Source: Flavobacterium potami (lineage in GTDB: Bacteria > Bacteroidota > Bacteroidia > Flavobacteriales > Flavobacteriaceae). From it: DNA of 64,000 nt. The notes below the pieces were generated by a model that worked only from the letters and a program-made list of their open reading frames with translations, did no database searches and was not told where the DNA came from. Position 1 is the stretch's first letter. Each line of letters starts with the position of its first letter. This document shows, piece by piece, positions 14,862 through 18,264 of the stretch. Location of the stretch: contig NZ_JAINUY010000005.1 in the NCBI RefSeq assembly GCF_020026915.1, positions 124,001-188,000 on the forward strand, written 5' to 3'. A program made the translations under genes and the position numbers.

Positions 14862-15908
14862 TTAGCAATTTATTTCCTGCTTTTCTATAAAATTATAAAT
14901 CACAATTGGAAAAGGAAAAGTTTTTAATTTTTCTGCATCAATCCCGTTTTCTAATGTCTCTTTTATTTTAATTTTCCAAAACTGTATATGAAGATGCTGA
15001 TGGGAAAGTTTATGAACAACTGTCGATTTAGCATAATCTTCTATACCTATAATAGTATAGGACGAGAAATTTTCTTCTTTTGCTTTTTTAGAAACCACAT
15101 CAAAATCAACTATTTCTTGTGTTTCTAAAAGCGGGAACTCATATAAATTATGCCAAATACCTTTTTCAGTTCTTTTCTGGATTAAGGTATTACCCAAAAC
15201 ATCTTCCAAGATCAAATAATTAAAGTAACGATTAGTCACTTTTATTTTTTTAGATTTTACTGGAAGCATATTTACTTTTCCTTTTTGTAAAGCGGCACAG
15301 CTTTCATTAAAATCACAAATAGAACAATCCGGACTTTTAGGCGCACATTGCAATGCGCCAAACTCCATTATTGCCTGATTAAAGATGGCTGGATTGTCTT
15401 TTGGCATCAATTCTTGTGCGAGAGCGGCAAATTCTTTTTTTGTTGCTGGAAGTGCAATATCTGATTCAATATCAAAGTAACGCGCCAGAACTCGAAAAAC
15501 ATTTCCATCTACAACCGGAACCGCTTCATTATAAGAAAAAGAAGCAATTGCTGCAGCCGTATATTCTCCAACTCCTTTCAATTTCAAAAGCTCTTTATAC
15601 GAATCTGGAAAAACTCCATTTAAATCATCACTTATATATTGAGCCGTTTTGTGAAGGTTTCTTGCTCGGGAATAATACCCTAATCCCTGCCAAAGTTTTA
15701 AAACTTTCTCTTCTGAAGCATCTGCCAAATGTTTTACAGTAGGAAATTCCTTGGTAAAAGAGAAAAAATAAGGCATTCCTTGTGCAACTCTTGTTTGTTG
15801 AAGCATAATTTCTGAGAGCCAAATTTGGTACGGATCGACCGTTTTTCTCCATGGTAAATCACGCTTGTTTCGTAAATACCATTTTATCAATATGTTATGA
15901 AAATCCAT
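14862..15908 (-). CDS. mutY: A/G-specific adenine glycosylase MutY
   Basis: MutY removes adenine mispaired with 8-oxoguanine. The 348-residue protein has the HhH-GPD glycosylase domain (ILPWRK-like RDLPWRKTVDPYQIWLSE, catalytic Asp in VVDGNVFRVL), the four-cysteine 4Fe-4S loop C-x6-C-x2-C-x5-C (CAPKSPDCSICDFNESC) and a C-terminal NUDIX-like 8-oxoG recognition domain. An upstream ATG (15929) overlaps the promoter's -7 box, so transcription would begin after it. ATG 15908 (MDFHNILIKWY) is the supported start. First gene of mutY-ssb-gldE-gldD. Confidence 0.96.
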   Translation of the reverse strand: MDFHNILIKWYLRNKRDLPWRKTVDPYQIWLSEIMLQQTRVAQGMPYFFSFTKEFPTVKHLADASEEKVLKLWQGLGYYSRARNLHKTAQYISDDLNGVFPDSYKELLKLKGVGEYTAAAIASFSYNEAVPVVDGNVFRVLARYFDIESDIALPATKKEFAALAQELMPKDNPAIFNQAIMEFGALQCAPKSPDCSICDFNESCAALQKGKVNMLPVKSKKIKVTNRYFNYLILEDVLGNTLIQKRTEKGIWHNLYEFPLLETQEIVDFDVVSKKAKEENFSSYTIIGIEDYAKSTVVHKLSHQHLHIQFWKIKIKETLENGIDAEKLKTFPFPIVIYNFIEKQEINC

Positions 15909-15926
15909 TGCAAAATACTTAGATTG

Positions 15927-15934
15927 CAAAAGTA
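15927..15934 (-). promoter_or_regulatory. -7 box (TACTTTTG) of the mutY operon
   Basis: The minus strand reads TACTTTTG. Predicted transcription starts near 15920, which decides the mutY start in favour of 15908. No obvious -33 TTTG. Confidence 0.55.
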
Positions 15935-15991
15935 AATGTTTATGTAATTAAAATTTAACGAATTAGCTTGATTAATTATTTTTTTAATTCC

Positions 15992-15999
15992 TATATTTG
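15992..15999 (+). promoter_or_regulatory. -7 box (TATATTTG) for the HU gene
   Basis: TATATTTG with a TTG about 21 nt upstream (15968-15970). It lies 51 bp before the HU start. Confidence 0.6.
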
Positions 16000-16049
16000 C
16001 AAACTCAAAAAAAATAGTACACCATTTATAAAATAAAATAGGAAAGAAA

Positions 16050-16340
16050 ATGACGAAAGCAGATATCGTAGCGAAAATTTCAGAGAAATTAGGTCTTGAA
16101 AAAGGAGACGTTCAAGCAACAGTTGAAACTTTTATGGAAGAAGTTAAAACTTCTTTAGAAACTGGAGACAATGTATACCTAAGAGGTTTTGGTAGTTTTA
16201 TCGTAAAAACTAGAGCTGAAAAAACTGGAAGAAACATTTCTAAGAACACGACAATTAAAATTCCAGCACACAACATTCCTGCGTTTAAACCTGCAAAAGT
16301 TTTTGTAGAAGGAGTTAAAACAAACAACGAAGCAAAATAA
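16050..16340 (+). CDS. HU/IHF-family DNA-binding protein
   Basis: A 96-residue nucleoid protein: MTKADIVAKISEKLGL helix pair, RGFGSFIVKTRAEKTGRN turn at the start of the DNA-clamping arm, and an arm containing NIPAFKPAKVF. HU/IHF proteins bend DNA as dimers and organise the nucleoid. The proline at the arm tip region (KIPAHNIPAF) fits the family. A 30-codon basic ORF follows after 27 bp and both end at one terminator, implying a two-gene transcript. Confidence 0.95.
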   Translation: MTKADIVAKISEKLGLEKGDVQATVETFMEEVKTSLETGDNVYLRGFGSFIVKTRAEKTGRNISKNTTIKIPAHNIPAFKPAKVFVEGVKTNNEAK

Positions 16341-16367
16341 TATTAATTAACATAAATCAGACACGAT

Positions 16368-16460
16368 ATGCCAAGTGGTAAAAAAAGAAAGAGACATAAG
16401 GTAGCGACTCACAAACGTAAAAAAAGAGCGAGAGCTAACCGTCACAAAAAGAAAAAGTAG
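16368..16460 (+). CDS. Small very basic conserved protein (30 aa)
   Basis: ATG 16368 to TAG 16458-16460 encodes 30 residues starting MPSGKKRKRHKVATHKRKK. More than half are Lys or Arg, with three His and no acidic residue. The composition and length resemble small ribosome-associated proteins. I recall near-identical short ORFs across Bacteroidota but cannot assign a function from the window. It follows the HU gene by 27 bp, and the stop codon lies inside the terminator stem, so the gene is placed exactly at the transcript end. It is too short for most gene callers. Confidence 0.8.
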   Translation: MPSGKKRKRHKVATHKRKKRARANRHKKKK

Positions 16461-16480
16461 TTTTAAACTACTTTTTTCTT
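16452..16480 (+). terminator. Terminator overlapping the small basic gene's stop
   Basis: A 12-bp stem (AAAAAGTAGTTT / AAACTACTTTTT) with a 1-nt centre, running into T-rich sequence. The stop codon TAG of the 30-aa gene is part of the left arm. Confidence 0.85.
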
Positions 16481-16510
16481 TTTAAACGTTCATTGAAATT
16501 GGAGTTTGAT

Positions 16511-16697
16511 AGTCTCAGTCACAGTTTAAAGTTCGCAGCCTAAAACTGCTTACTGCCACTGAAAACTGACAACTGACTCCTCCGGGTTAATACCTGTTAA
16601 AAATATTGTTTAATCCATCCTTGTAGAAGTTGATGGTTTTTGGTTTTTGGTTTTTGGCTCTTTTGCCAACAACTATCAACAAACAACCGACAACCAA
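16511..16697. repeat. ACTG-core, TTTG-core and CAAC-core arrays upstream of rng
   Basis: 16545-16578 holds five ACTG cores spaced by 2-3 variable bases. 16636-16660 holds TTTG+GTT repeated at 7 nt. 16670-16697 holds four CAAC cores separated by variable triplets (period exactly 7). The TTTG/GTT and CAAC arms are partly complementary. They fill the gap between the HU operon and rng and lie in frame with a spurious N-terminal extension of RNase G. Confidence 0.75.
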
Positions 16698-16719
16698 TTC
16701 ACGGATAAAAATTTACAGT

Positions 16720-18264
16720 GTGAATAAAGAATTAATCATTAGATCTAGTTCTGAAGCCGTAGATTTTGCCTTATTAAAAGATGGAAAACTAATTGAATTA
16801 CACAAAGAACAAGAAACAAGCAACTTTCAGGTTGGTGATATTTTTATTGCCAAAATCAGAAAACCAGTTGCTGGACTTAATGCTGCTTTTGTAAATGTAG
16901 GCTTCGAAAAAGATGCTTTTTTACATTATCACGATTTAGGTCCGAACTTAGCTTCCCAACTGAAATTCATAAAACTTGTAAGCGCAGGTAAAATAAAAGA
17001 TTTCTCCCTAAAAACCTTTCAGTTTGAAAAAGAGATTGACAAAGATGGCATCATTACTGATATTTTAAGTGCCAATCAATCTGTCTTAGTCCAAGTTGTA
17101 AAAGAACCGATATCGACCAAAGGCCCAAGAATAAGCGCTGAGCTTTCATTGGCAGGAAGATTTATCGTTCTGGTTCCGTTTTCTGACCGTGTTTCTATTT
17201 CACAAAAAATAGAAGACAAGAAAGAAAAAGACCGCTTAAAAAAACTTGTTCTATCGATCAAACCTAAAGGATTTGGTGTTATTGTTCGTACAGTAGCCGA
17301 AGGCAAAAATACAGCCGAATTAGAAAAAGATTTGCAGAACCTGCTTGGCAGATGGACTGCAATGTGTAAAAAATTACCAACTGCTCATCATCCATCAAAA
17401 GTATTAGGAGAGCTTAACAGAGCTTCTTCGATATTAAGAGATGTATTCAATGATACCTTCAGCGGTATTCAAATAGATGATGAAGAGTTGTATCATCAAA
17501 CGAAGGATTATCTGCAAGAAATTGCACCTTCAAAACAATCGATTGTTAAGTTTTATCAATCAAATGACACCCCCATTTTCGAGAAATACAATATAGAGAG
17601 ACAAATCAAAACTTCTTTTGGCCGAACTGTTTCCATGAGTAAAGGTGCGTATCTTATCATAGAACATACTGAAGCGCTGCACGTTATAGACGTAAACAGC
17701 GGAAACCGTTCTAACAAAGCAACCAACCAGGAAGATACAGCCATGGAAGTGAATATGATTGCCGCAGCAGAAATCGCAAGACAACTTCGTCTGCGTGATA
17801 TGGGCGGAATTATCGTAGTTGATTTTATCGATATGTCTAATCCAGAAAACAGGAAAGTTTTGTTCGACTTCTTGCGAGAAGAAATGAGCGACGATAAAGC
17901 AAAGCATAAAATATTACCGCCGAGTAAATTTGGTTTGGTCCAAATTACAAGACAGCGCGTAAGACCAGAAGTGAATATCAAAACCAGAGAGGAAGATCCA
18001 AATAAAGTTAATGGTGAAATTGAAGCACCAATACTAATAATTGATAAGATCACCGCTGATTTAGAAAGACTTTTAAAAACCCACAATAAGGTTGTGCTAA
18101 ACACACATCCGTTTGTGGCTGCATACCTCAGTAAAGGTTTTCCATCATTACGTTCAAAATGGTTTTTTGAACATAAGAAATGGGTGAAAATCATACCTCG
18201 TGACGCTTACACGTACTTAGAATATCATTTCTACGACAATAAAGGAAATGTTATTTCAGAATAA
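16720..18264 (+). CDS. rng: Ribonuclease G
   Basis: RNase E/G-type endoribonuclease, acting in rRNA maturation and mRNA turnover. From GTG 16720 the protein is 514 residues. It opens VNKELIIRSSSEAVDFALLK, has the S1-like RNA-binding segment near residues 35-125, and the catalytic region with VIDVNSGNRS and GGIIVVDFIDM carrying the metal-binding aspartates. The frame stays open upstream to 16630, but that stretch is the CAAC/TTTG repeat array, so I reject the longer start. It ends 4 bp before a strong terminator. Confidence 0.95.
   Translation: MNKELIIRSSSEAVDFALLKDGKLIELHKEQETSNFQVGDIFIAKIRKPVAGLNAAFVNVGFEKDAFLHYHDLGPNLASQLKFIKLVSAGKIKDFSLKTFQFEKEIDKDGIITDILSANQSVLVQVVKEPISTKGPRISAELSLAGRFIVLVPFSDRVSISQKIEDKKEKDRLKKLVLSIKPKGFGVIVRTVAEGKNTAELEKDLQNLLGRWTAMCKKLPTAHHPSKVLGELNRASSILRDVFNDTFSGIQIDDEELYHQTKDYLQEIAPSKQSIVKFYQSNDTPIFEKYNIERQIKTSFGRTVSMSKGAYLIIEHTEALHVIDVNSGNRSNKATNQEDTAMEVNMIAAAEIARQLRLRDMGGIIVVDFIDMSNPENRKVLFDFLREEMSDDKAKHKILPPSKFGLVQITRQRVRPEVNIKTREEDPNKVNGEIEAPILIIDKITADLERLLKTHNKVVLNTHPFVAAYLSKGFPSLRSKWFFEHKKWVKIIPRDAYTYLEYHFYDNKGNVISE

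Follow-up and report, generated by a model that had tools for sequence, protein, structure and literature searches.

A 30-codon reading frame in the 64,000-nucleotide stretch of Flavobacterium potami DNA analysed here (the window) almost certainly encodes ribosomal protein bS22, a peptide that is already known. The gene is followed by a conserved boxA-like element which lies ahead of an RNase E/G family gene. The locus comprises the following features.

14862–15929, reverse strand: mutY, divergent and on the other side of HU (listed ORF with a TTG start; TIGR01084, 331.1 bits, cut-off 286.5).
15992–15999, forward strand: TAnnTTTG-type promoter box TATATTTG upstream of HU, found by pattern scan.
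16050–16340, forward strand: gene for an HU/IHF-family DNA-binding protein of 96 residues (PF00216 Bac_DNA_binding, E 6.1e-28).
16368–16460, forward strand: bS22 gene, 30 aa (identity to PDB 7jil chain 5; conservation; synonymous-only variation in the genus).
16452–16476, forward strand: intrinsic-terminator-like hairpin of 11 bp with a loop of 3, containing the last bS22 codons and the stop, with T-runs to 16483.
16488–16500, forward strand: boxA-like element GTTCATTGAAATT (conservation in the family; same 13-base class in congeneric rRNA operons).
16720–18264, forward strand: gene of the RNase E/G family, denoted rng (PF10150, E 1.5e-100; TIGR00757, 397.5 bits, cut-off 325.95); its GTG start at 16720 was picked by alignment with relatives, the mechanical ORF starting at 16630.

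The bS22 frame runs from an ATG to a TAG and begins 27 bases after the HU stop. Its peptide is identical in 30 of 30 residues to chain 5 of PDB entry 7jil (E 3.6e-12), the ribosome structure of Flavobacterium johnsoniae according to PMC9976891, leaving no difference between the two proteins. Passages of PMC10618245 and PMC10085706 name the F. johnsoniae protein of this kind bS22 and place it in the small subunit, and our identification follows from this naming together with the complete match. Two more solved relatives are present in 9i5v (E 8.4e-9) and as bS22 in 8fmw (E 1.2e-5), a Borrelia ribosome whose chain V aligns over residues 1–28 of the window peptide. Besides matching bS22 resolved in ribosomes (7jil and 8fmw), the peptide has the length of about 30 residues and the very basic nature of that protein; it contains 11 Lys, 6 Arg, 3 His and no Asp or Glu, Lys and Arg making up 17 of the 30 residues (counted by eye). 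It has a single match within its own genome, and scans against Pfam and NCBIfam returned 0 families. The first-pass annotation had described a 30-residue Lys/Arg/His frame free of acidic residues behind an HU gene, which the translation and the PF00216 match of the neighbour bear out. It had also considered a ribosome-associated role, to be checked against Bacteroidota ribosome structures, and the F. johnsoniae chain, named bS22 in the papers, confirms this suggestion. Its remark that the frame is too short for usual gene callers holds only in part: bS22 of Borrelia was found unannotated, as a passage of PMC10618245 states, whereas relatives of the peptide are held in databases under the name 'AURKAIP1/COX24 domain-containing protein'. 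This settles the identity of a predicted small gene, whose product is a known ribosomal protein of a kind that annotation may overlook.

The identical 30-residue chain is present in five PDB entries (7jil and four more), in which depositors name it either '30S ribosomal protein S22' or '50S ribosomal protein L38', the second name being in conflict with the bS22 of the papers. PMC10618245 treats bL38 and bS22 of F. johnsoniae as different proteins and describes bL38 as a 50S, large-subunit protein near H95 of 23S rRNA, uL6 and uL14. Therefore, the 'L38' label on the identical chain is probably a naming slip.

According to PMC10618245 and PMC10085706, bS22 is very basic, has a bent helical shape and is lodged in a pocket of 16S rRNA; it also touches 23S rRNA at the subunit interface and is regarded as the analogue of mitochondrial mS38 and eukaryotic eL41. 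Helices h2, h27, h44 and h45 of 16S rRNA make up the pocket in PMC10618245, F. johnsoniae included, and PMC10085706 gives h27, h44 and h45. The papers place bS22 of Borrelia, mycobacteria and Cutibacterium, mS38/AURKAIP1 and eL41 in this rRNA pocket. These relatives are more distant in sequence (37% between F. johnsoniae and C. acnes bS22; PMC10085706), and mS38 is longer and eL41 shorter than bS22 (PMC10618245). Going by the pocket and the 23S contact described there, bS22 serves as RNA glue close to the decoding centre and bridges the two subunits.

The frame at 16368–16460 is a real gene. Across 26 genomes of the genus, our own included, all 30 residues of the protein are 100% identical, while the nucleotide sequence occurs in 17 distinct versions. 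Eleven of the 12 variable nucleotide sites are third codon positions. When each alternative base is taken singly, 13 of 14 are synonymous against an expectation of 4.9 (sd 1.6); the maximum among 20000 random placements was 12, and 13 was reached in none. The fourteenth alternative base is one half of a two-base switch between two Arg codons. Because the protein stays constant in the genus while its codons drift synonymously, a chance origin of the frame is contradicted. Lack of codon conservation had been named beforehand as grounds for giving up the gene, and such a lack was not found in the 26 genomes.

A search for conservation among Bacteroidota genomes, proposed in the first-pass annotation, gave a bS22 match (E ≤0.01) in 377 of the 392 genomes sampled from the phylum, with 26 of 26 genomes of the genus at 100% identity. 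Own genome, phylum sample and genus codon comparison all speak for selection at the protein level on a conserved gene, which nearly all of the phylum genomes sampled have kept. The 15 genomes with no match are clustered: family f36 is missed in 7 of 7 (G147, G195, G199, G309, G323, G335 and G368) and genus g89 in 5 of 9, with three further genomes making up the rest. When these 15 were searched with a profile of 11 rows, 13 gave no match and two gave short matches only, with E of 0.15 and 0.82. The f36 and g89 genomes concerned are 97 to 99% complete, and the assemblies of two of the 15 (G248 and G295) are broken into more than 300 pieces. From these searches, bS22 looks absent or very divergent in the 15 genomes, and a lineage loss in f36 and in 5 of 9 genomes of g89 is possible.

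The 3' end of the gene overlaps the hairpin. The 5' arm of the perfect 11-bp stem spans 16452–16462 and contains the stop codon (16458–16460), just as had been noted from the letters of the sequence. The RNA fold of 16448–16482 has an energy of −10.6 kcal/mol (z −3.5), and 0 of 200 shuffles were equally stable. In 37 of 41 loci of the family, the bS22 stop touches the 5' arm of a hairpin that is perfectly paired and carries a T-run (25 bases past the stop scanned); the whole stop codon lies in the arm in 36 of these, and only its last base in L042. As a control, none of 46 gene proxies in the window (ORFs of at least 120 aa) had a stop touching such an arm, and 7 had any such hairpin, with 60 bases past the stop scanned. 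A looser scan of 83 located loci found a hairpin in 54, overlapping the stop in 38 of these. The shortness of the frame and the position of its final codons within the hairpin would also suit an AT-rich ORF that arose by chance, or a leader peptide, with the hairpin as the conserved element. However, this reading is extremely unlikely: change in the genus is synonymous-only along the whole ORF, the protein is retained in loci with a different hairpin or with none found, and the peptide is both matched in those 377 genomes and solved in ribosomes.

TAnnTTTG is the −7 box of Bacteroidota promoters. TATATTTG is the sole such box in 15801–16100, and none occurs in 16331–16760, these being the two intervals scanned. 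Since the only TAnnTTTG box in the scanned intervals is upstream of HU, HU and bS22 probably share one transcript, which would mostly end at the hairpin; the scan addressed promoters of the TAnnTTTG type. In an Rfam search over 15900–16900 with E up to 1, six unrelated families were matched, none of them at its gathering score.

The gene neighbourhood was compared in a set of loci made up of the 30 best matches, 60 more stretches chosen from among the matches listed at about one per genus, and 15 from the profile-search step; seven of the first 90 (L048, L071, L076, L077, L084, L087 and L090) were dropped because the bS22 pattern was unmatched. The family of our genome, f1, is represented by 41 of its 46 genomes in the phylum sample. 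The counts are raw tallies over flanks of 1.1 to 1.5 kb beyond which a neighbour was counted as absent. In f1, HU is upstream in 41 of 41 loci, rng downstream in 41 of 41 and divergent mutY present in 40 of 41. Family f2 has both HU and rng in 3 of 3. In the remaining loci of the class, the numbers are 18/23 for HU, 20/23 for a tetratricopeptide-type gene upstream of bS22 and 23/23 for rng, and in those of the rest of the phylum 19/31, 13/31 and 0/31, respectively. The term 'tetratricopeptide-type' is our reading of the translations, and the queries for it, and for a second HU, came from L054, L061, L065 and L083, which match by construction. The order HU, tetratricopeptide-type protein, bS22 is seen in loci of other families, these four being examples; the window is without the middle gene. 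Altogether, rng is downstream of bS22 in 67 of 67 loci of family, order and class, and HU is upstream in 81 of 98 loci.

The frequency of HU upstream of bS22, in every family locus and in most others, would favour a nucleoid-associated peptide working with HU, a role that had been thought plausible earlier and has no support apart from the HU neighbour. We consider this role very unlikely, as a ribosome structure contains a chain of identical sequence, and DNA-binding and rRNA-binding are not separable by composition alone. In addition, the search for an upstream HU was negative in 17 of 98 loci, some of which have short flanks; the adjacency is common across the phylum and not obligatory, and it therefore provides no evidence for bS22 acting on the nucleoid.

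Beyond the hairpin, every one of the 41 family loci examined has the sequence GTTC[A/T]TTGA between the bS22 stop and the RNase E/G gene, about 25 to 54 bases past the stop, and its surroundings otherwise vary strongly among relatives in the part of the alignment covered. A looser boxA pattern, sought within 120 bases past bS22, likewise occurs in all 41 family loci; as controls, the complementary strand gave it in 1 of 41 and the reversed sequence in 0 of 41. Outside f1, the boxA-like pattern is found in 0 of 3 loci of f2 and in 1 of 39 of other families, though rng still adjoins bS22 in the class. The strict pattern also matched in L059, 226 bases past bS22, and this site was left out of the count. 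Compared by hand with the consensus GYTCTTTAANA, which is quoted in PMC5725501 and is that of E. coli, a member of another phylum, GTTCATTGAAATT fits at 9 of 11 positions and differs at 2.

The boxA sites of E. coli rRNA operons are located before and after 16S. No 16S match is present in the assembly of the window itself, and evidence from rRNA sites was thus taken from congeners. In four congeneric genomes, with positions compared by hand, sites of the 13-base class GTTCNTWGAMATW precede 16S in 19 of 19 rRNA operons and follow it in 17 of 19, and a search with this class also recovers the bS22-associated site in 5 of 5 genomes, our own included. Furthermore, the version GTTCATTGACATA behind bS22 in L031, L034, L035, L037 and L041 is letter for letter the after-16S version of the congeners. 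In one congener, G206, four of the five 16S leaders carry a second boxA-like site, which precedes the first (G206:C1:3118639-3118651, 3563048-3563060, 4257886-4257898 and 5197648-5197660).

Genome-wide, the 13-base class has 7 sites against 17 in the reversed control in our own genome, i.e. below control, and 14 against 11, 16 against 15, 23 against 18 and 21 against 6 in the four congeners, being far above control only in the last of these, G334. Because these counts are not consistently above control, the case for boxA is made by the positions of the sites and not by their numbers. The exact 15-base element has one site in our own genome, the one in the window, and a search allowing 2 mismatches gave 14+10 sites against 12+10 in the reversed sequence, which is the chance level. 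It is possible, though rather unlikely, that GTTC[A/T]TTGA is a promoter or mRNA-stability element of rng instead of boxA; such a function would agree with its location in the rng leader, with its being missing from nearly all loci outside the family and with the inconsistent genome-wide numbers. However, it would not account well for the presence of the same 13-base class at fixed places before and after 16S in congeners, nor for the agreement at 9 of 11 positions with the consensus quoted in PMC5725501. The element is likely boxA, an identification drawn solely from sequence and position.

We propose from this arrangement that the order HU, bS22, terminator, boxA and rng is under Nus-factor control of the rRNA type. 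HU and bS22 would share the promoter at 15992, and transcription would mostly stop at the hairpin overlapping the bS22 stop. Polymerases that read through would copy the boxA element into the rng leader and continue into rng, and NusB-S10, the antitermination complex that serves rRNA operons, could be loaded on this leader. Taken jointly, these steps, as predicted from sequence, have about an even chance of being correct. A comparable case is the boxA of the E. coli suhB mRNA (PMC5725501), likewise a boxA-type element in an mRNA leader. The same paper knows boxA in mRNA leaders from gamma-proteobacteria and links about 25% of the gene functions with an upstream boxA to translation. In contrast to the suhB site, the element in the window belongs to another phylum, follows a terminator-like hairpin, precedes an RNase E/G gene by about 220 nt, and is a prediction. 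In the titles and the beginnings of abstracts of the open-licence papers listed on Flavobacterium, Bacteroidetes and F. johnsoniae, a boxA before an RNase E/G gene is unreported, and this element is the only part of the locus that is possibly new.

An RNase E/G-type nuclease trims 16S rRNA in E. coli. For the family, the chances are evenly balanced that the RNase E/G gene is under NusB-S10 control through an rRNA-type boxA located past the HU-bS22 terminator, in which case a small-subunit protein, a nuclease of this type and rRNA synthesis would answer to the same Nus complex. The conserved rRNA-like control element beside bS22 is the sole part of the locus that merits new work, and it may be tested in Flavobacterium johnsoniae.
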